A stretch of DNA of 64,000 nucleotides from assembly GCA_036320915.1 (NCBI GenBank), contig JAXBDG010000010.1, positions 1,302,001 to 1,366,000 on the forward strand, given 5' to 3'. Shown piece after piece: positions 29,586 through 43,600 of this stretch. The first letter of the stretch is position 1. Every line of letters begins with the position of its first letter. Source of the stretch: Linnemannia elongata (Eukaryota > Mortierellomycota > Mortierellomycetes > Mortierellales > Mortierellaceae). The translations under genes were made by a program, and so were the position numbers. The notes below the pieces were generated by a model. The model was given only the letters and a program-made list of their open reading frames with translations. It did not search any database and was not told where the DNA came from.

Positions 29586-29774
29586 TTAGCGGATACAGGG
29601 ACCGGTCGAGGCATTGGTCATCATGTTGTGCGAGATCTTGTAGAGGGCCTCTTCGGGGGTCATCTTGGTACCGGTGGAGTCACGGATGGTTTGCATCGAG
29701 GTGCGAGGGGTTTGGGCTGGAGTCGAGGCAGCAGAAGAGGTCTTGTTCTTGTTGGAGTGCTTGAAGAGAGACAT
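29586..29774 (-). CDS. Small-protein family, member 1 (62 aa)
   Basis: Intronless, 62 residues, beginning MSLFKHSNKNKTSSAASTP. Order of parts: a basic amphipathic start (1-11), a Ser/Ala/Thr-Pro linker with two T-P pairs and a basic R-x-S (12-32), the core KMTPEEALYKISHNMM (about 37-52), and an end G-P-C-I-R. There is no signal peptide or membrane helix. The T-P/S-P and R-x-S sites could be phosphorylated, but that is inference. It differs from the copy at 31762 at about four residues (H6 for R, S-T for A-S in the linker, C60 for F) and lies in a duplicated segment that includes its promoter. A TATAAAAA box lies 143-150 bp upstream. Function unknown. Repeated preservation of the frame in five paralogues is the best sign it is a real gene. 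Confidence 0.8.
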   Translation of the reverse strand: MSLFKHSNKNKTSSAASTPAQTPRTSMQTIRDSTGTKMTPEEALYKISHNMMTNASTGPCIR

Positions 29775-29916
29775 AGTTGGCTTGAGTGTTTCTAGGAGTA
29801 TGTGGAGAGTGATGGTTGAGGGTTGGCTGGGTAGGCTTGAGGCTGGTTGCTTTTGTTGCGTTTGTTGCTTTGAGAATGTGTTTGATGATGAGAAAAAAAG
29901 AGGGGATGGTCGCGTC

Positions 29917-29924
29917 TTTTTATA
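29917..29924 (-). promoter_or_regulatory. TATA box of small-family member 1
   Basis: TATAAAAA on the minus strand inside the shared context CAGGTATAAAAAGACGCG, 143-150 bp upstream of the ATG. Confidence 0.65.
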
Positions 29925-30305
29925 CCTGTTCGTCCCTTCATAATTGTGGAATCTGCAACACTTTGAAAGTCAGAGGGACAAGATTTTGTCATCTTGGTAG
30001 AAGCAGACGTAAACCTTAGTCAGATTAGACGCCGCCAAGTATAAGGCCAAGCAAAGGAAAAAAGAGTGTCTCTCGTCCATGTAAAATCAAGTTGGACCAT
30101 TGTTGTTACTGCCAAGAGAGTAGAAAGATTTAGAGTTGGCCCTGGCAGGGCCATGATGTCAATTGAAAACACAAAACATACTTCTCTACCCGTTCACGTC
30201 GCCGCACACTTTAAAAATATTCTCCGACGCAACGCCATCCGTCCGCAGTATAAACTGAGGGAGAATGAGCGTCATTCACCGATCCTTTCCTAAAGGAGAT
30301 AGCTT

Positions 30306-30916
30306 ATGCGTGTGGTTGTGTGTAATTCGACACATCGATCCTTCTTTGGCTCAAATGAGGGAGGGGGAACAAAAAAAAAAAAGTAATTAATTGCTCTGCG
30401 TCACGATTGACCAGGCGTATTTATGAACGTTTCATGAACACCCCACAAGTCAAGTTACACATTCATGGCACGGATACTTTTAGGGTAACAAAGGACACTT
30501 GCCAAAACGTCCATGGAGTGAAAGGAAAAAAGGGTGCTTGGCACATGCTAGTTCTTCTATTTTCTTCTACAGCGGAGCAGTAAAAGTCAACGATGTATCA
30601 CTGGTCGACTTTGAACTCATGGCTAGAAAAGGACCTGTCCATAACATCATCCACAGGAGGCCAAAGGGAGACTCCGCAAGCAGATAGAGGGTATGTCAGG
30701 TGGCGCCTTTTTTCTTTTTTCTTTCTTGTTTTTCGTTTGTTGATCCTTTGTTTTGGTACATATGAAGCAATAGTAAACAAGGGACGTAGAATATGAGAGA
30801 AAAATGGGTCGGGATGCTTTAAAGTTGTACAAGGTGAAGAGGAAATGGGATGCCGGGGTATATATATACATGATTGAGAGGAGTAAGAGAGAAACGAGTT
30901 CTCATCAGTAAGTGTC
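30306..30916. other. Intergenic region between small genes
   Basis: No gene supported. A TATATATATA-like stretch at 30858-30867 lies just 3' of the next small gene. Confidence 0.5.
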
Positions 30917-31102
30917 TTAACGGACACACACTCCGGCAGCAGTAAAGGTCAGCTTGTTATGTGCGATCTTGTAGATGGCTTGCTCTGGGGTCAACTTGAC
31001 ATCCGACGATCTTGAGCTCTGCATGGATGCGCGAGGGGTCTGGGCAGGGGAGGAAGCAGCCGAGGCGGACTTGTTCTTGTTGGATCGCTTGAAGAAGGAC
31101 AT
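30917..31102 (-). CDS. Small-protein family, member 2 (61 aa)
   Basis: Intronless. It starts MSFFKRSNKNKSASAASSP and keeps the basic start and the S-P/T-P linker (SSPAQTPRASMQ). The core reads KLTPEQAIYKIAHNKL and the end GVCVR. It is clearly a paralogue of the copies on either side but diverged: the core substitutions are conservative (E to Q, L to I) while the segment before the end (TFTAAG) has changed. The surrounding DNA is not alignable with the 29.6/31.8-kb duplication beyond the coding and proximal promoter region, so this copy arose from an older event. A TATAAAA box lies about 130-136 bp upstream of the ATG. Function unknown. Confidence 0.78.
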   Translation of the reverse strand: MSFFKRSNKNKSASAASSPAQTPRASMQSSRSSDVKLTPEQAIYKIAHNKLTFTAAGVCVR

Positions 31103-31761
31103 TGTTGGCGTGTAAGTGTGAATGTAGGTTAGGTTGTTATTGATGGTCTTGGGAAGTGTTGCTTGACTGGCTTTGTTTGTTTGATGATGGTGAAGAAAAA
31201 AAAAAGAAGATTGAGTGTATTTCCTGACGCCTTTTATACCTTTGCACGGAATGTATAAAACGAAAAGAAGGTTGCTGAGTTACTGCGCGTCGTGCTTAGG
31301 ACTAACAGTACTATGATCAGTGTTGGTTCTCATTCGCTTATGAACCATACTGGTCTCAAATGAATCTCAGACAGAATCGGTCCCCCATGTTATTTTTTTG
31401 CCGCAGTATGGACAAGTGGCCAGCGGGGCGAAAAAGGCACTGGAGTCCTTGGAGCTCCATTTATGACTGCAATCGCATAAGTACTTTTGAACAAACAGGG
31501 ATCCAACATAGGTTATCTAGGAACAATGAACGTCTTTATGGCACTGCTTAACACGGGTGATAAAAAATTTAGGAATTACCGTGCTCTAAAACACTGAGAA
31601 CAAAATTGTCAGGCCTCACAGCGCATTCGTCAACAATAAATGATTGTTACAAGATTAAAGGATATGCTGTTTATTGTACAAGATGAATTGATTTAAATGC
31701 AAGTGAGTGGAGGGTATGGTGGTGTCGGCTAGGTGGGTCGCCGATTCAAGGGGTCATCCCT
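31103..31761. other. Promoter of small-family member 2 and spacer
   Basis: Apart from the TATA box at 31232-31238, I see nothing I can name. Frames on either strand are short and chance-like. Confidence 0.5.
31232..31238 (-). promoter_or_regulatory. TATA box of small-family member 2
   Basis: TATAAAA on the minus strand in the context AAAGGTATAAAAGGCG, about 130-136 bp before the ATG. Confidence 0.6.
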
Positions 31762-31950
31762 CTAGCGGATAAAGGGTCCAGTCGAGGCATTGGTCATCAT
31801 GTTGTGCGAGATCTTGTAGAGGGCCTCCTCGGGGGTCATCTTGGTACCGGAGGCATCACGGATGGTTTGCATCGAGGTGCGAGGGGTTTGGGCTGGGGTC
31901 GAGGCAGCAGAAGAGGTCTTATTCTTGTTGGAGCGCTTGAAGAGAGACAT
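31762..31950 (-). CDS. Small-protein family, member 3 (62 aa)
   Basis: Intronless, starting MSLFKRSNKNKTSSAASTP, with linker TPAQTPRTSMQTIRD, core KMTPEEALYKISHNMM and end STGPFIR. This is probably closest to the family consensus. It is the second copy of the duplicated 720-bp segment. The stop TAG is reached right after FIR. The copy is intact, as is its twin at 29586, so both were probably kept by selection or duplicated recently. It lies downstream of, and on the same strand as, the F-box gene at 32616-34853. Function unknown. Confidence 0.82.
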   Translation of the reverse strand: MSLFKRSNKNKTSSAASTPAQTPRTSMQTIRDASGTKMTPEEALYKISHNMMTNASTGPFIR

Positions 31951-32085
31951 GGTTGGCTTGAGTGTTTCTAGGAGTATGTGGAGAGTGATGGTTGAGGGTT
32001 GCTTGAGTAGGCTGGTTGCTTTTGTTGCGTTTGTTGCTTTGAGAATGTGTTTGATGATGAGAAAAAAAGAGGGGATGGTCGCGTC

Positions 32086-32093
32086 TTTTTATA
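32086..32093 (-). promoter_or_regulatory. TATA box of small-family member 3
   Basis: TATAAAAA on the minus strand in the same context as copy A (CAGGTATAAAAAGACGCG), 136-143 bp upstream of the ATG. Confidence 0.65.
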
Positions 32094-32615
32094 CCTGTTC
32101 GTCCCTTCATAATTGCGGAATCCGCAACACTTTGAAAGTCAGAGGGACGAGATTTTGTCATCTTGGCAGAAGCAGACGTAAACCTTAGTCAGATTAGACG
32201 CCGTCAAGTATTTGGCCAAGCAAAGGAAAAAGACTGTCTCTCGTCCATGTAAAATCAAGTTGGATCCTTGTTGTTGCTGCCAAGAGAGTAGAAAGATTTA
32301 GAGTTGGCACTGCCAGGGCCATGATGTCAATGGAACACATACAAACAAACACACTTCGCACCCTGTTCGTTCTGTTCATGTCGCTTCACCTTTGACTAGT
32401 ATTCTCCGACGCTGCTCCATTCATCCGCAGTACGAGCTGAGAGGGATGAGCGCCATCTACCCATCCTTTACTAAAGGAGATAATGCGTCCTTCTGTCCCC
32501 GTTCCATCCTCAGTTCCCAGCAAAGATATCTCAAACGAACATCAGCCAATTATGAAGAAAAGGTGTTGGTTGATTTGATTTGTTTTGTTTTACAAGGTGC
32601 TCAGAAAAATAAGGA

Positions 32616-34853
32616 CTAGAATCTGCCACGATTGGCCTTCCTGCTCCCCCGTCGCCCTCCCCTCTCAGCAACCATACCACCACTCAACGACTCAAACTCA
32701 CGACTATATACGACATGTTCACTATCGAGCCCCTCGTATTCGTCAATGGCATAAGGAAAATCAGTTCGAGTTCCGCAGCTACAACTGCCCCAATATCCCA
32801 CACGATGCTCATACCACAGGTGATCGCTCCAAGTATGACGGCACGCCCTAATAAGGTACATCCAGTCTTCCCAGACACGACCCACACGTCGGTGAAATGG
32901 ATCTACAAGCTGTGCGTACGAGGTGTTGGTTTCGACGTTAGACTGCTTGGTTGCCAGCAATGATAGTTTTTGGGTGTCCGCTCTTTCTTGTTGTTCAGCT
33001 TGTGTGGACCAAGACAGACCAAGCCAGCTAAGATCCACTGCGGTGATGGGACCCCACCAGCCTTTGCTCGTCCTTGGAAGGTCCTCTCTCCGCATGAAGT
33101 TGATACTCCTGGCTTCATCCTCATCAAACTCTGTCTCATAGAACAAGCGAAGGACCTCCTCCAGGGCCATGCTGCGGATGGAAGAGCACGCGCACCACTC
33201 AATCTCCAGCGCACAGAGTTGCTTGAGATCCTTGAGGCGGCCATAGAGTTCTCGAACCTGCAGGATGAATGCCACTCGATGCTCCCACTCCTCCCTCTGT
33301 GTTGCTTGTTTCATCTCTCGGCTGCGGTCGTCGTCTTCGGGTATCATCGCAGGAACATCGCGCATGATCGTATCCCAGTCGTCATCAAACTCCACATCAC
33401 TCCATCCACCCTCATCCTCAAAAACAAATCCAGTACGGTAATCGCAAGGACACTCTTGCCAGAGTGGCTCCAACAAAGACAGTTTCAACTTTTCCAGTCG
33501 ACTGAATATGGTCGAGTAGTCTTCCTCAACGGCGCCCGAAATGGTGCGAGAATGAGCAGGGGCGTTCCAGCAGTAGTCGGATATCGAGTATCCTCCTTCC
33601 TGGTAGAGGACCAACTCCTTGAGCCGAGTGCAACGGGTCCAACTGGTCTCGGTTCCAATGTGAAAAGGGTTCGCGGTGTCCGTATGCCAACCACGGCAAT
33701 CGAACCAAGCAATCTCCAGAGTATCTGTTGACCGGGACACCAATTCTGCAATCGCGTGATGAGTCGACGGTGGCAACTCGCCTTCGATCCTGAACTCCTT
33801 CAGCTTGGTGAAGCGTGATCCTAGTGGTAATGGACTCGTTATTGCTGTTGCCGTCTCGATGTTATCGCCGTTACGTGCATCAATACCCTTGGCCAAAAGG
33901 TCGATCGTCTCCATATCAGGACAAGAAGTGAGCAAAAGTTGCAATAAGTTCTGCAAATTTCCGTGGAGGTGCTGCAGAACAAGATCCTGGAGCCGGGGAG
34001 CCCTTTTGATCAGAATTTCCGCTTCTGCGCCATCGTAGTTGTAATATATGGGTTGCCATGCGGGGGAGAATGGTGAAGGAAAGAACACTTCTTCCTGCCA
34101 ATGCGAAGTCACCGGTTTCGGTTTCTGAGGTCCACAGAGACAGAGACGTTCCAGGCCTGGGAGTAGAGTTGTCGTGAGCTTGTTCTCAAGGATTGCGGGC
34201 TCGTTCTCAATCCAGTGGGAAGGCTTTATGTTTTCGTAGCGGAACTCAAAATCTCGGAGACCAACAGGAAGGCTGTTATAGAGGGTGTATCGGAATGCCA
34301 CAGAGATTATACTGAGGCCGATATGGATCCGGGTAAGGAACTTGTGTGTCGCCAGCGACTTGAAAACTGGTTCTGTGAAGTGGTCGTCTATGTACCTCGT
34401 CTCATTGTGTTCGACGGACAGAGTGTGGAGCATGGGGTTGATCTCAATCAACAGAAGCGCGTTCTTGGTCTGGTCCACAATCGAAGTATATTGTTGAATG
34501 CTATGATATATAGAAGGCTTCATCTGGTAGTCATAGTCGACGCAGTGGAGCTCACGGAGGTTGGTGCATGGCGACGAAGGGTTGTTCAAGAACCATCCGG
34601 CATCGGATATGTCGATGTTGAGGGTCTGTAACCGAGCTGCGCTGTCGAGTATGGCCCACGTCTGGTGCTTCTTAAGGTTGACGAATTCGATATGACGGAG
34701 AACATAGGGTCGGAAGAGGGCGAACCAGTCACGGGAGACTTGGAGGCAGGGGAGGAGGTCATCTTTTGTGAGATTGTCGGAGATGAGGTCGAGGATGAGA
34801 GGGATGTCAAAGATGGAAATGGAGATGGTATGTTTGGTGGGGATGAATTGCAT
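32616..34853 (-). CDS. F-box/LRR-type protein (745 aa), cluster copy 1
   Basis: Intronless. The F-box lies at about residues 14-60: SIFDIPLILDLISDNLTKDD then LLPCLQVSRDWFALFRPYVL. Degenerate leucine-rich segments follow, such as LHTLSVEHNETRYIDDHFTE and LRDFEFRYENIKPSHWIENE, with CTNLRELHCVDYDY in the first repeat region. The C-terminal third is acidic and includes AVDLSWLGLSW, HRRVGRVWEDW and a terminal basic tail RRGSRKANRGRF. It is a paralogue of the gene at 36394: same length, same SIFDIP start, same 'HRRVG-W-W' C-terminal block. By family knowledge it would be a substrate receptor of an SCF ubiquitin ligase; the substrate is unknown. It lies immediately upstream of small-family member 3 on the same strand. 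Confidence 0.85.
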   Translation of the reverse strand: MQFIPTKHTISISIFDIPLILDLISDNLTKDDLLPCLQVSRDWFALFRPYVLRHIEFVNLKKHQTWAILDSAARLQTLNIDISDAGWFLNNPSSPCTNLRELHCVDYDYQMKPSIYHSIQQYTSIVDQTKNALLLIEINPMLHTLSVEHNETRYIDDHFTEPVFKSLATHKFLTRIHIGLSIISVAFRYTLYNSLPVGLRDFEFRYENIKPSHWIENEPAILENKLTTTLLPGLERLCLCGPQKPKPVTSHWQEEVFFPSPFSPAWQPIYYNYDGAEAEILIKRAPRLQDLVLQHLHGNLQNLLQLLLTSCPDMETIDLLAKGIDARNGDNIETATAITSPLPLGSRFTKLKEFRIEGELPPSTHHAIAELVSRSTDTLEIAWFDCRGWHTDTANPFHIGTETSWTRCTRLKELVLYQEGGYSISDYCWNAPAHSRTISGAVEEDYSTIFSRLEKLKLSLLEPLWQECPCDYRTGFVFEDEGGWSDVEFDDDWDTIMRDVPAMIPEDDDRSREMKQATQREEWEHRVAFILQVRELYGRLKDLKQLCALEIEWCACSSIRSMALEEVLRLFYETEFDEDEARSINFMRREDLPRTSKGWWGPITAVDLSWLGLSWSTQAEQQERADTQKLSLLATKQSNVETNTSYAQLVDPFHRRVGRVWEDWMYLIRACRHTWSDHLWYEHRVGYWGSCSCGTRTDFPYAIDEYEGLDSEHVVYSREFESLSGGMVAERGGRRGSRKANRGRF

Positions 34854-35204
34854 GGGAGAAGGGGAAAAGGGTCAAGAAGTGGTGGGAAAGAAAAATAAAA
34901 ATAAAAAAATGCAGACTGTGCTGCTTTTATTACAGCCCTTGGAGGCGTTGGAGGCGTGCATTGATGCTGTTGTTGTTATGGTGGCGCAAGGTATCCAAAG
35001 TTCGAATGAGCGTTGGGAACGGAATGCATTAGAGCGCACAAAATCATGCAACTATTTGGTTGCTGCTAGTGGCGTTTCTCATCGAATATTCGATGAGAGG
35101 CACTAGTTGATAGCCGTTGGCACCGACCATCGTCTGCCACGACACGACTATGAGAGATTATAGAAGTGACAAAACGCGTCTTTCTTTTCTGCAGAAATGG
35201 AGGG
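34854..35204. other. Promoter region of F-box copy 1, with palindrome
   Basis: No gene seen. A/T-rich leader at 34890-34910. The region contains the palindrome listed separately. Confidence 0.5.
35077..35098. repeat. 22-bp perfect palindrome inside a larger imperfect inverted repeat
   Basis: TCTCATCGAAT followed by its exact reverse complement, with no loop. Outside it, CTAGTG on the left (35067-35072) pairs with CACTAG on the right (35101-35106), so the whole structure spans about 40 bp. It could be a dimeric regulator site or the remnant of a small inverted-repeat element. Confidence 0.85.
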
Positions 35205-35479
35205 TTAGTTGTTGACGAGCAGTTCTCCCTTTCTGTTGCAAGGAATAAAAGACAAAAGATAAACTTCAAAACTTCAACTTACACATCTTGCAGGCCTTTG
35301 CTCCTCCAATCTTCCAGAAAACTTAGCCCTATATTGGTCAAGTCTCGATCAGTCGGTCTGCTGGCCACAGGAGCCATTGTCTTCCAAGGTGTCATATTGC
35401 AACCGCATGTTTGCTTCTTATGTTGGAGGCAAGAGCAAGCGATGGATATAATGCAGGGGGTTGCTTTGAATCCGCACAT
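35205..35479 (-). CDS. Possible small Cys-rich protein with one intron (74 aa)
   Basis: Low-confidence model: exon 35283-35479, a 50-nt intron with a perfect GTAAGT donor (35282 downward) and a GCAACAG acceptor, and exon 35205-35232. Phase 2 is preserved. The product starts MCGFKATPCIISIACSCLQ, has six cysteines in the first 27 residues, then a polar helix-like stretch DLTNIGLSFLEDWRSKG, and ends VKGELLVNN. I recognise no family. An overlapping frame (35392-35628) also looks partly protein-like, so the true structure is uncertain. It lies between F-box copy 1 and small-family member 4. Confidence 0.3.
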
Positions 35480-35787
35480 TTGTCCACAATAGCCTCCCCT
35501 TCCCTCTTCTTACTCTCATTTTCCTCATCCCTCTTACAATCATTTTTTTTATCCATTCTTGAATAGATATCTGCCAATATCTGTCTTAATAACCATAACG
35601 AAAGAAAATTAACAACGATTAAGAACAAACACCACAGGGGGACGAGCCAACCACCCTGTCAAGGAGCAGATGGTTGACTATTTGGCGATTGTGTTTATTA
35701 GTTGAAACATGGGCAGTAAATTATGGTCTGCATAAAAGAATGCGAAGGTATAGAGGTTTCTTTTGATCCAAGAAAGGACGCTCGCCT
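35480..35787. other. Spacer between a possible small gene and small-family member 4
   Basis: No gene I can support. It holds the presumed 5' flank of the Cys-rich candidate and the 3' flank of the small gene at 35788. Confidence 0.4.
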
Positions 35788-35973
35788 TTATCGGATAAAG
35801 GGACCGTTGGAGGCATTGGCCATCATGTTGCGTGCGATCCTTTCGAGAGCCTCCTCGGGGGTCATCTTGATACCGGCGTCACGGAGAGTCTGCATCGAGA
35901 CACGAGGGGTCTGAGCTGGAGTAGAGGCAGTAGAGGCGGTCTTGTTCATGTCGGAGCGCTTAAAGAGAGACAT
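35788..35973 (-). CDS. Small-protein family, member 4 (61 aa)
   Basis: Intronless, starting MSLFKRSDMNKTASTASTP, linker TPAQTPRVSMQTLRDAG, core KMTPEEALERIARNMM, end SNGPFIR. The N-terminus, the T-P-A-Q-T-P-R linker and the G-P-F-I-R end are those of members 1 and 3, while the second half of the core helix has diverged (ALERIARN for ALYKISHN). It sits directly downstream of the F-box gene at 36394-38532, repeating the arrangement of member 3 with F-box copy 1. A TATAAAAA box lies about 139-146 bp upstream. Function unknown. Confidence 0.8.
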   Translation of the reverse strand: MSLFKRSDMNKTASTASTPAQTPRVSMQTLRDAGIKMTPEEALERIARNMMANASNGPFIR

Positions 35974-36393
35974 TGTTTGCTTAAGTGTTTCTTGGAGTGG
36001 TTGTAGAGAGCGAAAAATTGGAGATTGCTTGAGTAGGCTTGAGGTTGGTTGTTTTTATTTTGCTTGAGGATGTGTACGAGAATGAGGAAAACACAACGTG
36101 TCGAACATGGATTTTTATATCTATCCCTTTGACGATGGAGTTGAAGACAGTAGCGAAGGCAGGGACGGTATTTGTCAGCTGGACTGTACTCAATGTTTGT
36201 CATAGATGGCTCGCCAAGGGGGCCAAGGACCGAGGGAATAAAAAACAATGAGAAGCATCCAAAAAAGAGCCGACCGCAGCAGCAATAGCACCGCCTTGTC
36301 TCAATAAACAAATGAGCGCCGTGTGTGACAAGTTATTCTCCGCAGACACTGGCCATGCTACACAAACGCAACATAAAGAAAATGACACACACT
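35974..36393. other. Promoter of small-family member 4 and 3' flank of F-box copy 2
   Basis: The proximal 80 bp resemble the leaders of members 1 and 3 (TGCTTGAGTAGGCTTGAGG...TTGG). The TATA box is listed separately. I see nothing else. Confidence 0.5.
36112..36119 (-). promoter_or_regulatory. TATA box of small-family member 4
   Basis: TATAAAAA on the minus strand in the context GATATAAAAATCC, 139-146 bp upstream of the ATG. Confidence 0.6.
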
Positions 36394-38532
36394 TTATTTT
36401 TTCTTGCGTTCCAAGCGCGCCGCCTGGCGACTCAAACACTCGCCTTGACGACCGCCCTTCTTCGCCCTTGTCCATCTCCCCCAGGACCCATTGGTACCCT
36501 CTAACTTCTTTGTCATCGCTTCGAACTCTGTCATCGACAAGATAGGATCCTCCATGTAATTACACTCGGGGTTTTCATCGCCATCTCTGCCAGCAACAGC
36601 ATCCCAATCCTTCCAGCCATGTCCGACGCGCCGGTGGAGAGGGTGTTCTGGATAATCAAACTCATGAGGTGGGCGCTCATGAGGCGAGTTTTTTGCTGCG
36701 TAGAACTCATAATCGCGACGAGTCCAAAATACGGATCCTAAACCCAACCATGCCAAATCCTCATATTTCACCTTCCTTGGTCCAGTCGATTCCGCCCTGA
36801 TATCCACATCAGCTGTTGAAATGTCCTCGCACTCATCTTCGCCTTGATCACAACTCTCACCATTGCTCTCGTCCTCATCCTCGGACTCTAATATATCCTT
36901 ATTGATCATATCCAATAGATCCTCCAACGCCATGCTCATCACAGCCTCGGAAAGATTCCATTTCAGTTTGAGGGCTGACAGTCTTGGAAGAGACTTGAGC
37001 CGCCAAACGAGCTGTCCAATGTCACACGCAAATTTCTGTCGCAACCGCTCAGTCTCACCTGGAGTCAACAGGATCGGCTCCTCGTTTTCCTGAGTAGGGG
37101 CGATCTCGACGTTGCCTGACACTAGTGATGGTGCCGGTGGCAGTGTATCCCTGACCAACAAGTCTAGCGACTCCAGCTCTGTACACTGCCATTCGGACGG
37201 CTGGACAAGATCTTCAAGTAGAGCTCTGGGGAGACACTGTGGAGGCCTGTCATCGACTTCTCCGTCGCAATTGGGACAGCAAATAATCGTGTAGTACTGC
37301 CTCATTCTGACCCTGAACTTTCTCAACCGGCTACAGTCGATCCATGCACGAGAATCCCACGGGTTCGAATTGACGACGTGTTGAAGAGACCATGGATACT
37401 GGATCGAGTTCCAATGATAGTCGTTCATCTCAAACTTGATAACCTCAAGAGTTGAAGCCGAGCAAAGGACCCAGTTGGCCAAGTTCTGATAATCGTCCTG
37501 CGTTCGCGTTTGGTTCCAGATATGCATTCGAAACTCTCGGAGCTTTGCGAGATGCCCCTTCAGAGGAAAACTATCGGCGGCTGTTGATGCTGTCTCTGGT
37601 GGGTCGAGTGGAGGTGGTGCATAGTCGCTCCCATGAAGGTTAACGATCTCCAGATCAAGACAGGAGTCTGTCAGCGCTTGCAGGACGACTCGAGGGTCGC
37701 CCTTGTAATCTCCTATGGTGAACTCTTGAAGCAGTGGACACTTGGCCACAAGGGGGACAACAACAGATTCAGGAAGGTAGCCTCTGTCGAAAGAAATAGA
37801 AGACCAAAACATCGACGATCCCTGCTCGCCATTGGGATACCAGTTGGTCGAATGAAGGCACAGCTTCCGGAGTGACGTCGAAGGCCAGTCCAGCAGAGGC
37901 AGCTCCCGAGCGATCGAAGGCGAGACGTTGCATCTCCATCCAGAAAACTCTAGATCTTGGAGGGTGGACGGAAGATGTTTTACGAGCGTATGCAAGAACT
38001 CTATCTCATACTCGACTATCCTAATTCGGATCTGCGTCAGCGATGAGTGGAACAAGAGCGACTCTAGGATGGATGGCGTAAAATACCTTGTTGAATCTGC
38101 TTTTCTGCGGTGCCGAATATGCAGCATTTCTAACTGGGAGTTTTTGCAGACAAGCGCCATGGCGTTTGTGGTGTTCGGGAAGTCGGAGAAGTCGGATTCG
38201 GGAGAGGAATCGAAATCATAGGAGTCGAAGCAGTAGAGTCGTCGCAGGTTGGTGCAGGCCACGTCTTTGTCAAGAAACCATGCACCGTCAGAAAGGTTGA
38301 TCTCGAGCGAACGGATGACGGCGGCTCGATCGAGGATAGATTGAACTTGGGCTTGGCTATCGCCTAGGGAGTCGAACTTGACGAAACGGCTGATCTGGGG
38401 AAGAAAGAGGTCACACCAGGATCGAGACACCAGAAGACAGGCGGCGACTTGGTTCCTGGAGAGGTTATCGCATATAGAGTCGAGGAGTACAGGGATGTCA
38501 AAGATGGAGGCATAATTTGTGTTGATAGACAT
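36394..38532 (-). CDS. F-box/LRR-type protein (712 aa), cluster copy 2
   Basis: Intronless. The frame stays open upstream to 38646, but I chose the ATG at 38532 (MSINTNYASIFDIPVLLDSI) because it aligns with the start of the paralogue at 34853. The F-box is at about 9-55 (SIFDIPVLLDSICDNLSRNQ, then CLLVSRSWCDLFLP). Leucine-rich segments follow (LEMLHIRHRRK; TPSILESLLFHSSLTQIRIR; TLQDLEFSGW; SLRKLCLHSTNW). A CxxC pair (ICCPNCDGE) in the middle may bind metal. A long acidic segment (about 590-620) precedes the conserved C-terminal block LAWLGLGSVFWTRR...HRRVGHGWKDW and a basic tail. It is probably a substrate receptor of an SCF ligase, by family. It lies upstream of small-family member 4. Confidence 0.85.
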   Translation of the reverse strand: MSINTNYASIFDIPVLLDSICDNLSRNQVAACLLVSRSWCDLFLPQISRFVKFDSLGDSQAQVQSILDRAAVIRSLEINLSDGAWFLDKDVACTNLRRLYCFDSYDFDSSPESDFSDFPNTTNAMALVCKNSQLEMLHIRHRRKADSTRYFTPSILESLLFHSSLTQIRIRIVEYEIEFLHTLVKHLPSTLQDLEFSGWRCNVSPSIARELPLLDWPSTSLRKLCLHSTNWYPNGEQGSSMFWSSISFDRGYLPESVVVPLVAKCPLLQEFTIGDYKGDPRVVLQALTDSCLDLEIVNLHGSDYAPPPLDPPETASTAADSFPLKGHLAKLREFRMHIWNQTRTQDDYQNLANWVLCSASTLEVIKFEMNDYHWNSIQYPWSLQHVVNSNPWDSRAWIDCSRLRKFRVRMRQYYTIICCPNCDGEVDDRPPQCLPRALLEDLVQPSEWQCTELESLDLLVRDTLPPAPSLVSGNVEIAPTQENEEPILLTPGETERLRQKFACDIGQLVWRLKSLPRLSALKLKWNLSEAVMSMALEDLLDMINKDILESEDEDESNGESCDQGEDECEDISTADVDIRAESTGPRKVKYEDLAWLGLGSVFWTRRDYEFYAAKNSPHERPPHEFDYPEHPLHRRVGHGWKDWDAVAGRDGDENPECNYMEDPILSMTEFEAMTKKLEGTNGSWGRWTRAKKGGRQGECLSRQAARLERKKK

Positions 38533-39089
38533 GGCGAGGATGTAGGTGGGAAGATGAAAGAAGTGTTGATGGGAAGAGGGGAGGAGAGGACATGAATTTC
38601 TTTGGCTTGTTTTTATTCGAAAATAATTTTGCGTTTGTACGACCACCGTAATCAGCTCTGCCTCCGGTGGCGTAAGAGCTCGATCCTATTTTTCACGAAA
38701 AATTAGCGAGAGCGAAGGCAACGAATCGACACCACAACGCTCGGTCAGGTATTGTTATAACAGGAATCTGTGCTCTGATGTCGATATAAACGAGTACCAC
38801 TACCAGGGACACTCGTAGCTCGAATAAAGTCCCGTTTGGAATAGAGGGAGTGATAAACGTGTTCATTTTTCTTTCATGGTAGTATCCTGCATTCACATTT
38901 GACAAGTTGCATTTTTTGGGGCAGTACGATATGCCGAGGACACACTCCTCTTCCCTCACACTTTAACGATAATGAAAAGAGAAGTGCAAGGCTGAAAAAT
39001 ATTCTCATTCACATTTGTCCATGTCCCACCCTCGGACTCAGTACTTGAGATTGGAAGCCTTGGCTTCCCTGTCCTTATTCTAATACATT
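38533..39089. other. Promoter region of F-box copy 2
   Basis: No gene supported. Confidence 0.5.
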
Positions 39090-39437
39090 TCAAGGAAGGT
39101 AATGCCAATTCTTGACGCAGAGCTCCAGATTTAAAAGCGACCGCTCGATGTGTTCAAAGAGCGATACCAAAAAAGTAGTGGAAAGACTAACATCCAGACG
39201 GATCGTGATTCCTGTCGGAGAGTTGTGCTTGGTGATGGACTGAAAAACCGCAGGGGTGAAGTTGGTAGGTCTCGTATGTTGTGTTGCCGTGCTGAACTCG
39301 AAGATGCCTCAACTTTGGGTCCTGATGGATGAGAGTCAAAGCGTTCCTGGGCGGATCCTAGATCAACTTCTTTGGTGGCAGAGCAGCAGTACCAGTCGTA
39401 TGTCGATGCTGACAAGTTCTTCGATGTTGGTACAGGA
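39090..39437 (-). pseudogene. Decayed F-box/LRR gene fragment
   Basis: Reading the minus strand in successive frames recovers the order of elements seen in the two intact F-box neighbours. First comes SCTNIEELVSIDIRL (compare CTNLRELHCVDYDY in copy 1). Next is ALTLIHQDPKLRHLRVQHGN (compare LLLIEINPMLHTLSVEHNE). Then, in another frame, NFTPAVFQSITKHNSPTGIT and ERSLLNLELCVKNW (compare YFTPSILESLLFHSSLTQIR and TLQDLEFSGW in copy 2). It then hits TGA at 39090-39092. The F-box itself and the C-terminal half are missing, and at least two frame changes interrupt what is left. I read it as a third, dead member of the local F-box set. Confidence 0.7.
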
Positions 39438-39828
39438 GGTCGGAGAATATCTTGGACCAGCTAGTTTGTATTATTTTCGGGACCAGCTAGAGAATCAGTG
39501 TTTCAAAAGCGCTCTCCCTCTCCTCAAGGTCAACATCATCCATTCACTTCCCATCGTGAAGGTTGCAAGAAGTTTGTTCAAATTGCTTGACTAATGGGGG
39601 GTCGAGGGCTGCTTGTTTAACGTAACAACATCAGGTATCTTGACGTAGGTGCTTGCAAGAACTCGGCTCCTGGAAGATCAAGGGAAAAAATCAAAGTGGA
39701 GATAAAGACGTTGGAAATCTTTAATTGCGTGATTTTAGGTGACAATAAAAGAGAAAGGGTGAGAGGAATGATCGAGGCCGGGTCTAGGGAGACGAGACAG
39801 TTGTGCACAACCTATGCAGTACAACAAC
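39438..39828. other. Spacer between F-box relic and small-family member 5
   Basis: No supported gene. It may contain further unrecognisable remnants of the F-box relic. Confidence 0.4.
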
Positions 39829-40065
39829 CTAGAGTAGAAAAGGTCCATTGATCATGTTCGGCGTCAGGTCCTGCGAGAGCTTGAGAAACGCCTCCTCAGG
39901 GGTCATCTTCGCCTTGGGTTGAGTAGCGGCGGCAGTGTCGCGAGCGGTTAGCGTCGCCTCTGAGGATCGAGGAGCGGCGGTTTGATCCAGTGATTTTAAG
40001 GACTCGGACGCTTTGGTAGTGGAGAGCAGCTTCTTCTTGTCGTTGGATCGGCTAAGGAAGGTCAT
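39829..40065 (-). CDS. Small-protein family, member 5, divergent and longer (78 aa)
   Basis: Intronless. I chose the ATG at 40065 (MTFLSRSNDKKKLLSTT) because it aligns with the basic start of the other members; the frame stays open to an ATG at 40146. The linker is about 17 residues longer and Ser/Thr/Ala-rich. The core KMTPEEAFLKLSQDL and the end INGPFLL are clearly those of the family. Because only the start, the M-T-P-E-E-A core and the G-P-F end survive, these are probably the functional parts. A TATAAAA box lies about 96-102 bp upstream, closer than in the others. It sits upstream of the F-box relic. Function unknown. Confidence 0.72.
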   Translation of the reverse strand: MTFLSRSNDKKKLLSTTKASESLKSLDQTAAPRSSEATLTARDTAAATQPKAKMTPEEAFLKLSQDLTPNMINGPFLL

Positions 40066-40679
40066 TGCATGGGATGAGACGATTGATTGTTGTGGGAGTG
40101 AGATTGAGTGCGTGTTTTTGGTGTTCTTTGAATACTGATTGAGCATGGTTGGTCAAATCCTTTTATAACTGAGCATTTGACATATCCAAAATCATTCCTC
40201 TTTTACTCTCGCTGAAAAGTTGCAAGAAGATCAACACACGGAGAACCGCCAAGCACGCTTGATTTCGAGGTCTGCCTTCATTCTCTGTGCACAGTGAAAA
40301 AAGTTAGTGTCGTTTTTTAGCATCACAACCTTGGCCCGTATGCAGCACCCCAAAATCGACATCGTCCTTTCATTCAAGGTAAGCCCACAAGCCCAATTGC
40401 TTATACCAAAACATGCGCTCTCGCAAACACGATAAAGAAGACGGTCCATGTGTCATGAAAAGATCGACAATTCTCCTCCTAATTTGGATCGGAAAAAAAA
40501 ACCGACAAAGTGAACGAGATTTGTATCCATGTGCTCTCCTTTGTTTACACTCTTGGCATTGTCCATTCCCTGCAAAGAACAAAAAAGCGACACAAAAAGT
40601 CATTTGTGTAATGGCATCCTACAAGATATGCTAAGCAAATGATGTTCTATTGAATGCGTATGCGTATGCGTCTATATGC
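40066..40679. other. Spacer between small-family member 5 and a transcription-factor-domain gene
   Basis: No gene supported apart from the TATA box near 40161. Right edge of the small-gene/F-box cluster. Confidence 0.5.
40161..40167 (-). promoter_or_regulatory. TATA box of small-family member 5
   Basis: TATAAAA on the minus strand in the context CAGTTATAAAAGGATT, 96-102 bp before the chosen ATG. Confidence 0.55.
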
Positions 40680-43600
40680 TTAATTGTAATAGATCTGCTG
40701 GTGGCTCTGAGATGACTGTTGAGGCTGGTATTGTTGGTGGTGACTATGAGGTGGTTGTTGAGAGTATTGCTGAGGAGCACTTCCACTGCTTCCCCCCATC
40801 ATCTGTGGCTGCGACGACAACAAAGAGGTTTCAGATGATCCAGACTGGTCAGCCGTCGAGTAGAACCCTAGTCCGGTACCTCCCGAAAACGCGTTACTCC
40901 CGATCGAGTACACAGGCATAACTTGCTGAGGTGTCGACTGGCTCAGGAGGGGCAAAAACTGTCGGTCATGTCCTTGCCCGTGAGATGCAAAGGCGGACAC
41001 AGATGTAGTTGGGGTCGACAATGACTGGGTGTTGTACTCGAAATGGTAAATCGGCTGTTGAGGCACCGTAGCAGAGGCGATATGACTGGTGGTAATACCA
41101 CTCACATCGCCCACCATAGACATTGCCGTAAAGGATCCAGATTCAGCTCCTGAGCCAACAATAGATCCTGTTCCGGCACTACCACCACTTCCCATCATCA
41201 ATGAAGTGTAATCTCCCGTTTCTGGCATCGAGTATCCAGACGACATATTGACGGCCATGGCGTTCGACACAGGCACCGGATCAGAGCTGCCAGAGTATGA
41301 ATTCATAGCTCCTCCTGGAAACGATGAACCGGCATAGTTTCCAGAGTTGGGCTGTTGTTGAGGTTGTTGAACACTTGAACCAGCAGCGGCGCGCATTTGC
41401 TGTCGTTTCCTGATGATCGTTGGAAGGTCGTGAGATTTGGGGTTTCCTGACCGCTGTTGATACAACTGCTGGATCTGCTGTTGCTGTTGCTGAAGTAATG
41501 CCGGCTCCACGGATGGTGCAGCGGCATAGGCATCTGCACGGGTCCCGGTCGCAGAAAGGAGCCGCTCCTGATTCATGGCCAAGTTCTGCGCTGCAGCGGC
41601 AGCATCCGATGACGTGGAGAGTTCGCTGGACAAGTTCAGCGCAGTCTGCGCACCAAGACACTCATCGATCAGCTTTTGTTGGATCGCATGCTGATGTTCC
41701 TGAAGCGAGTCGAGTTCGACGGTAAGGTAAGAGTAAAAGTACTTGTGCTCCAGATTGTCGAACCGATGCAAAAGTTTCGCAACTCTCGCCACCTGGACAG
41801 CGCACTGACCCTTAAGGCGCGCCGAGAAAACAGGGGCTGAATCCTTGGCCTTGTCATTCTGGTGCCGCATGTCCTCACTGGGCGTGGCAACCTTCTTCTC
41901 CACGATGATTTTATGATAGATACGAAGGCACCATCCCAATGCAGCGCCTGTGCAGGACATGTGCGCCCGTTCTGGATATCTGTGCAACAGAATCTCCGCG
42001 TAATGCACAATCCGGTCGGCTTCCTGCGTACACTGGATGATCTTGTCCAAGAGGTCCTGGCGGCGCTTATAGCGCTGTCGTTGTTGTTGGATGGTTTGTT
42101 GAAGCTGCGTGTCCTGGGTGGAAGCGGTTCCCTCCTTGACGACGGAGACTGGTTGGAGCAGATGGGTCCCTACCGCCAGCATGTTTGGATAGAGCAGCAG
42201 GACGTTGAGCATGCTGTACACCAATTGCAGTCCCAAAGCCCGCCCGTTGACTCGAGGCTCAACGTAATCCATATTGTTGAGTTGTGGTCTCAATCGCATC
42301 GGCAATTCGTCCTTCCACATCTTCAGAGACAGTAACAGCTCCGCTTCCGAGAACTCGTTGACAAGGACATCCTGAAAGGTGGGGCTGAAAACAATCGCCT
42401 TGCCATCCGTGTCCGTCTCGGTACCGGCCGTCGCGATCAACTGGTCCATTTTTTTGAGTCCCGACTGGAAGAATGCATGGATCTTTCGGCCAACCCTCCA
42501 GAGATGAATCTCCTTCAGCATGAACCATCTTGTCCACAGACCGTCGTCGGTATCGAGTTCCGTCAGTGCTGGGAAAGGTGTCTCCAGGAAATCGTCGTCC
42601 AACTGACTCAAGTGACCCCTGACAACCGTTTGCACAGTATCGAACATGTACATTCCCCAGAACAACCAGTATCGGGCCTGCAACACAATAGGTTTTGGCA
42701 TCCATCTCGACGCGTCTACATGGAGTCCCAAGAACGCGCACTCGCTCACAAGTTTCAGCAGCTCGGCTCGGAGTAATGCCTTGGGGTAAACATAGCAGAG
42801 CAGCAGAGCAGCCTGAAGATACACTGTGGAGTACGTGCTCCGAATATCATCCAGGTAAGACATCAATCCTACGACAATGAAAAAGGCACGGTTCGTAAAT
42901 AAATGTGCCATTGCCTTCCGTCATATCACAGCACATAACCATCATCCGATTAACATACCAAAGGCGCGCCTAAAGTATCTTGTGCACTGTGCTTTGTTGG
43001 CAACAGGGTCAGTCTTCCTCGCAACTGGAATCCCCATGTTTTCAATCTCAGGATCAAGACGAAGCGCGATTCCTGCAATGACATTGAGCAGCATCCTGGA
43101 AGTCTGGTTGGATCGGGTCTGCTTGGCGCGCTCTACAACTAGCCGTGTCATGAAAGGAGGGAACAAGTGTGCGTTCTACGGCCCCCCATGTTTGAAAGTC
43201 GATATAGTCGTGTGCGTCAGTTGACCATTCTTTCACATATGCATATGAAAGCAGGCAAAAAAAAAGTGGCGTAGGTCGATACGTACCTGGAAGTAGACCT
43301 CGATAGAGCGTTCAATCTTGGCGACAGAAGGCAAGATCAAGAGTTCCTGGTTTGTTGGAGTCGCTGGTTCGATATAGTTGCGCACCCAAGCAGGATCCTT
43401 GGATTGAATGACCATGTCATCATCCCAGGAGTTTCCCTCAGGTTTGAGGTTGACCGATCCTGTCTTGCCCCAAAACAAGCAAGAGTCATACAGTTTGAGG
43501 TCGTTCATGGCTTCCTCCAACTGTGATACGCCTCGATAAGGCGGCAGAGCCCGAATTGAAGGCTGGACACGAGTGTTACTGCTGGCGTTTTTCCGGATCG

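Follow-up and report, generated by a model that had tools for sequence, protein, structure and literature searches.

The subject of this analysis is a 64,000-nucleotide stretch of the Linnemannia elongata genome (the window, C2:1302001-1366000; the genome comprises 51.1 Mb in 32 contigs, of which C1, C2, C31 and the like are labels), which contains several very small genes on its minus strand. These genes belong to a protein-coding microprotein family of the Mortierellaceae, as shown by the selection acting on their reading frames, and the main clusters of the family in this genome are inverted repeats, three of them with near-identical arms. The maintenance of these arms by gene conversion from one arm to the other is supported but not proved, and the products can plausibly be regarded, on sequence evidence, as phosphorylation-controlled docking peptides. 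Taken as a whole, the best explanation would be a selected microprotein family that resides in gene-converting inverted repeats and encodes a phosphorylation-controlled, disordered docking peptide at high dosage, a reading in which confidence and doubt are about evenly balanced.

Family members and selection on their reading frames

The family is present in the genome far beyond chance. A first genome search listed 45 matches, some of them partial and none containing an internal stop codon (0/45). They represent at least 43 copies, distributed over C2 (13), C1 (8) and three separate loci on contig C31, namely C31a (10), C31b (10) and C31c (2). To reach this number, two pieces at C2 1295552-1295749 were counted as one gene, and a match on C10, whose frame shares just a short stretch, was rejected as a family copy. 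Two further genome queries added just a weak C13 match (expectation value (E) 0.02), which was left out of the count. Since the search scores just its best candidates, these copy counts are lower bounds. With starts set to the nearest fitting ATG, the 43 copies encode 22 distinct proteins.

Selection was assessed by the Nei-Gojobori method on 22 representatives, with 44 pairs reported whose proportion of nonsynonymous differences (pN) was below 0.30. The ratio of nonsynonymous to synonymous rates (dN/dS) is below 0.6 in 43/44 of these paralogue pairs, which share branches and are therefore not independent. In one pair, 9 changes are synonymous and 1 is nonsynonymous (p 8e-6, one-sided Fisher test), and seven chosen pairs yield one-sided Fisher p values from 1.4e-6 to 0.007. 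Between the left arms of C31a and C31b, the four coding regions differ at 17/738 sites (2.3%) with zero gap columns, third codon positions accounting for 15 of the 17 differences, and the intergenic DNA differs at 144/2,020 sites (7.1%) with 206 gap columns. The original prediction had named a dN/dS near 1 as a sign that would speak against it; the values obtained instead indicate that purifying selection holds the frames open. Its argument from frames preserved across copies of very different age is sound as regards preservation but calls for caution as regards age, as young-looking copies may have been homogenized by gene conversion.

The five minus-strand frames on which the prediction was built are all present in the window, and four of them are clear paralogues. 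The gene at 29586..29774 encodes a 62-residue protein (MSLFKHSNKNK...GPCIR) that is 94% identical to the 31762 protein and is preceded by TATAAA at -150. A second type of 61 residues (MSFFKRSNKNK...GVCVR) is encoded at 30917..31102; it is 61% identical to the 31762 protein and is encoded identically at C2 1290193. The gene at 31762..31950 specifies a 62-residue protein with a GPFIR end, which three more copies to the left of the window encode identically, and the gene at 35788..35973 specifies a 61-residue protein with the same end and a dN/dS of 0.21 against 31762. Thus, identity to the 31762 protein ranges from 61 to 94% for 29586, 30917 and 35788, and falls to 40% for the fifth frame, 39829. 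The GPFIR end, which had been ascribed to most copies, is found in only two of the five window genes (31762 and 35788), the others ending in GPCIR (29586), GVCVR (30917) and GPFLL (39829); genome-wide, 6/43 copies possess it exactly.

The fifth frame (39829..40065, minus strand, 78 residues) is probably a divergent member of the family. It shares with the other copies the KMTPEEA block, a GP-hydrophobic end (GPFLL) and a TATA box, and a clean TPAQTPR is absent from it. Against a family profile built without it, the protein scores 10.7 bits, with an E of 0.03 in a set of 1,002 sequences; this score was exceeded by 1/1,000 of its own shuffles. As a genome query it recovered family copies in 8/10 non-self matches, the best of them at just E 8.9e-4. 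The ATG at 40065 is preferred as its likely start because the upstream in-frame ATG at 40146 follows the TATA box at a distance of some 16 bases only.

Nearly every copy possesses its own TATA box. TATAAA occurs at -170 to -60 in 38/43 copies and for 18/22 distinct proteins, compared with 2.6% of 116-base windows drawn at random from the retrieved DNA, and 41/43 copies contain it if positions down to -190 are taken. On the minus strand of the window, these boxes are located at 29919..29924 (29586 gene), 31233..31238 (30917), 32088..32093 (31762), 36114..36119 (35788) and 40162..40167 (39829). By eye, a C- and A-rich leader follows the TATA box, and AATAAA lies within 250 bases past the stop codon in many copies. 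The stretch that encodes the conserved start in the window copies is rich in pyrimidines and ends in AAG; by eye, it resembles a splice acceptor.

Open-frame homologues, whose absence the prediction had named as a further sign against it, exist in related genomes as annotated proteins of Mortierellaceae. One protein-database search returned 34 relatives and another 312, of which 120 were listed. The hosts named among the matches listed represent nine genera, all of this family (Linnemannia, Mortierella, Haplosporangium, Podila, Entomortierella, Lobosporangium, Dissophora, Actinomortierella and Benniella); this distribution rests on annotated proteins, and some listed proteins are metagenomic and carry no host name. 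When one half of a Lobosporangium protein served as query, two candidates only were obtained, both from Mortierella. The genes had been considered too short for most gene callers, yet existing annotations already include many members under the name of hypothetical proteins, some of them fused to a neighbor. By eye, several of the database gene models P0035-P0068 fuse two neighboring tiny units: in P0047, P0052, P0054, P0056, P0059, P0060 and P0064 (from Podila, Mortierella and Linnemannia), an MHFFKKS-like unit is joined to the next unit, which ends in a GPFIR-, GPYIR-, GPFIH- or GPFLR-type sequence. The pairing of an MHFFKKS-type with a GPFIR-type unit looks old because the C1 cluster has the same order (965812 then 967189).

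The predicted absence of a known family is borne out by Pfam, in which no member reaches a cut-off. The four clear window members gave no match at E up to 1, and 39829 gave one match far below its cut-off (14 versus 25 bits). The alignment A2 comprises 46 sequences, namely four window genes (39829 being left out) and a selection of 42 from 123 database proteins. Its members gave scattered weak matches to 18 families, with a best E of 0.0037; one family was matched by two members and each of the other 17 by a single member. A search of solved structures found no relative of the family. A fold search also found none, an empty result that means little given a low-confidence query model with a mean predicted local distance difference test score (pLDDT) of 64. 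Among open-licence papers, no title or abstract start dealing with the family was found, and a term search of PMC9503022 and PMC9004744 turned up nothing relevant. A single paper, PMC2848000, which apparently concerns FACT and MCM, contains the string TPAQTPR.

Inverted repeats and the possible maintenance of their arms by gene conversion

Although the genes were originally described as a one-strand cluster, this appearance is an effect of the window edge. The window contains the right half of a mirror-image cluster, in which eight plus-strand copies at C2 1289346-1301404, located 0.6-12.7 kb to the left of the window, face the five minus-strand copies. Comparable arrangements with far more similar arms are found elsewhere in the genome. 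On C1, the arms (960793-967484 and 997482-1004174) are 6.7 kb long, 99.8% identical and 30 kb apart; those of C31a measure 3.8 kb, with 99.4% identity and a distance of 11.4 kb, and those of C31b 4.0 kb, with 98.2% identity and a distance of 4.4 kb. The two C31 palindromes, at 608-628 kb and 709-723 kb, lie 100 kb apart and have arms in common but different spacer genes. Of those spacer frames that were scanned, some belong to ordinary families, for instance a thiolase on C1 and a carboxylesterase in C31a. Others gave no match or a weak match only, among them one frame in the C1 spacer that weakly matches HSP70 and one in the C31b spacer that weakly matches a leucine-rich repeat (LRR) family. 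It is possible that the 30-kb spacer between the C1 arms constitutes an invertible segment.

Arm-to-arm gene conversion would keep the arms identical, so that the copies they carry would evolve in concert. A four-way alignment of the C31 arms contains 220 locus-specific, 0 arm-specific and 0 cross sites as well as 19 singletons; the two arms of one locus thus resemble each other much more closely than they resemble the arms of the other locus. Furthermore, a near-identical interior with fading edges is what such conversion predicts. Over 961083-967483, one indel is all that separates the C1 arms, but 15 differing positions are found at 960790-961082, in and beside the outermost tiny gene.

The near-identical arms could alternatively have arisen through separate recent inverted duplications instead of long-term gene conversion. 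This main rival is regarded as unlikely, though it retains appreciable weight: the single indel that distinguishes the interior of the C1 arms is just what a very recent duplication would leave. On the other hand, C31a and C31b lose arm similarity on the outside in the same 200-column alignment block, and a common outermost loss block fits one ancestral palindrome. Some arm ends also exhibit a gradient of divergence, with identity at the inner end of C31a declining through 97, 94 and 67% and a gradient likewise seen at the outer end of C1, all of which speaks against independent recent events.

The nearest known counterparts of this layout are found in animals. Inverted-repeat paralogue pairs in Caenorhabditis are described (PMC1803023) as long near-perfect repeats whose structure is kept while their sequence diverges, gene conversion being one proposed mechanism. 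The fungal clusters resemble them in consisting of inverted repeats with divergent or convergent paralogues in a maintained layout. They differ in that they occur in a fungus, carry several tiny genes per arm and have spacers of 4 to 42 kb, compared with 126 bases at F44E5.4 (PMC1803023). The palindromes of the human Y chromosome are likewise large inverted repeats, and their very high arm similarity is attributed to gene conversion (PMC3723533). The fungal arms of three clusters are 98-99.8% identical, whereas the Y arms exceed 99.9% (PMC3723533), and the comparison does not extend to any sex-chromosomal or mating-locus position in the fungal case.

Proposed function of the peptides

The best conserved part of the protein is the TPAQTPRxS stretch. 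Residues S14, Q21, T22, P23, R24, S26 and A43 are invariant in 46/46 A2 sequences, and the ratio of nonsynonymous to synonymous differences (pN/pS) in six chosen pairs amounts to 0.25 over residues 1-28 and to 0.52 over the remainder. AlphaFold predicts, with low confidence (mean pLDDT 64), one helix at residues 40-50 and otherwise no regular structure. Six members examined are basic (isoelectric point 9.5-11.1) and hydrophilic (grand average of hydropathicity -0.5 to -0.8). Preferred codons make up 81% over the 22 distinct copies versus 58%, 56% and 61% in three larger genes of the window.

It is proposed that these genes specify a basic peptide, for the most part disordered, that would be made in large amounts under particular conditions; the many identical genes would provide a high dosage. 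The conserved first half (M-x-[LF]-F-K...K-N-K...TPAQTPRxS) may serve in docking and regulation, with phosphorylation by proline-directed kinases that would take place at its Thr-Pro and Arg-x-Ser sites, and the variable C-terminal helix may set the partner. The phosphorylation switches suggested in the original prediction are thus putative. A bolder version of this model envisages phospho-regulated peptides of about 60 residues in early-diverging fungi, whose dosage and sequence identity would be actively maintained by palindrome recombination; the palindrome would act as the unit of concerted evolution and possibly as an invertible segment, and one half of the peptide would stay constant as the C-terminal helix diverges from locus to locus. 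This version is speculative and rather doubtful.

The chief functional rival is that of a stress or spore protectant, in which an abundant, hydrophilic, disordered protein of the late embryogenesis abundant (LEA) or Hsp12 kind would shield membranes or proteins and would need dosage, not a specific partner. Small fungal stress proteins of the Hsp12 kind are short, hydrophilic and likely disordered, and in these respects the family is like them. The small size, the basic and hydrophilic character and the preferred codons would all suit such a role, as would the TATA boxes, since TATA-box promoters in yeast go with regulated stress genes. Nevertheless, conservation of QTPRxS and the tighter constraint on the first half suggest a specific contact, and a repeated LEA motif was not seen by eye. 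The family further departs from the Hsp12 kind in having no Pfam match to such a family, a conserved proline-directed motif and many copies. The protectant role is therefore deemed improbable, although it is to be taken seriously. The label "SMP domain-containing" attached to P0046 in the database was tested and not confirmed: among the families returned, the seed-maturation (SMP) family appears neither for P0046 and nine others (E up to 10) nor for the 46 A2 members (E up to 1), in searches whose HMMER filters drop most weak matches.

Several observations weigh against the combined explanation of a selected docking-peptide family kept uniform by gene conversion. The window's own cluster on C2 has an older inverted duplication, encompassing two tiny genes and most of one F-box-like gene, whose right arm (30799..34817, minus strand) and left arm (C2 1286456-1290498, outside the window) are just 80-90% alike over three inverted blastn pieces, and the two copies of C31c form a divergent pair that lacks an arm-scale repeat. 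The pair C1 961008/1003956, with 6 nonsynonymous changes and 1 synonymous change, is the sole exception among the 44 reported. The 170 bases upstream of the genes differ between the left arms of C31a and C31b at 49/675 sites (7.3%), with 14 and thus fewer gap columns; compared with 144/2,020 sites, this upstream DNA is not slower in substitutions than other intergenic DNA. A fourth larger gene of the window uses 77% preferred codons, and the five window copies use just 69-79%. The motif conservation in A2 was partly selected for because the proteins were found through shared words, and Q21 and T22 are not invariant in the alignment A1, which includes 39829. As a separate observation, the exceptional pair consists of the outermost C1 mirror copies (960811-961008 and 1003959-1004156), though the inner arms are near-identical.

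Neighboring genes and significance

Two F-box-like genes are interspersed with the tiny genes on the minus strand of the window. The first (32616..34853, 745 residues) lies in the arm and gave no Pfam match at E 0.01; its mirror copy at C2 1286426-1288678, with 64% protein identity, gave an F-box-like Pfam match below the cut-off (16.8 versus 24.3 bits). The second (36394..38532, 712 residues) lies between 35788 and 39829, is 33% identical to the 32616 protein and also lacks a Pfam match at E 0.01. On C18 (120592-172510) and C21 (47204-97417), F-box-like relatives with several in-frame stops are found, two per contig; one pair of them has identical scores, as if a duplicated stretch, introns or gene decay were involved. 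Directly adjoining the tiny-gene cluster, window positions 40680-42911 contain a gene with a fungal-specific transcription factor domain.

The alternation of tiny and F-box-like genes on one strand raises the idea that the tiny proteins might be degrons or adaptors, each a partner or substrate of neighboring F-box-like ubiquitin-ligase receptors. Gene models that join family sequence to 36394-like sequence (P0101, E 1e-12; P0066, 3e-18; P0068, 1e-8) suggest a similar neighborhood in some relatives, and a gene with a weak LRR match is located inside C31b. However, P0012, by eye another such fusion, gave just E 0.047 and was not confirmed. Close relatives of the F-box-like genes outside the C2 cluster (on C8, C18, C21 and elsewhere on C2) lie away from tiny genes, and none of those C1 and C31a frames that were scanned gave an F-box match at E 0.01. 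Because close F-box-like relatives are absent from the other tiny-gene clusters, the link appears local in this genome, and it may come from one duplicating block. The degron or adaptor role is deemed very unlikely. Least probable of all is a mobile or selfish unit that spread the genes, either a composite element with the palindromes as its inverted ends or a drive system formed by the family. C31a and C31b would fit this in sharing arm content and outer edge around different spacers, but the proteins are constrained across genera, each outer arm edge falls just past the stop codon of an outermost gene that itself belongs to the family (the C1 edge being eroded), and the C1 and C31 arms contain no stop-to-stop frame above 185 codons and hence no intronless transposase. 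One 813-codon spacer frame extends 70 bases into the right arm of C31b; the absence of long frames in the arms disfavors a transposon as far as intronless genes are concerned, just some spacer frames having been scanned.

A widespread group of soil fungi is hereby shown to possess a microprotein family that is under selection and had not been described before. As the peptides are short and easily tagged, their function is directly testable. Automatic annotation of such clusters may err by joining neighboring genes in one model. In addition, the multi-kilobase gene palindromes are a candidate for concerted evolution in a fungus, a behavior described for human sex chromosomes and nematodes.

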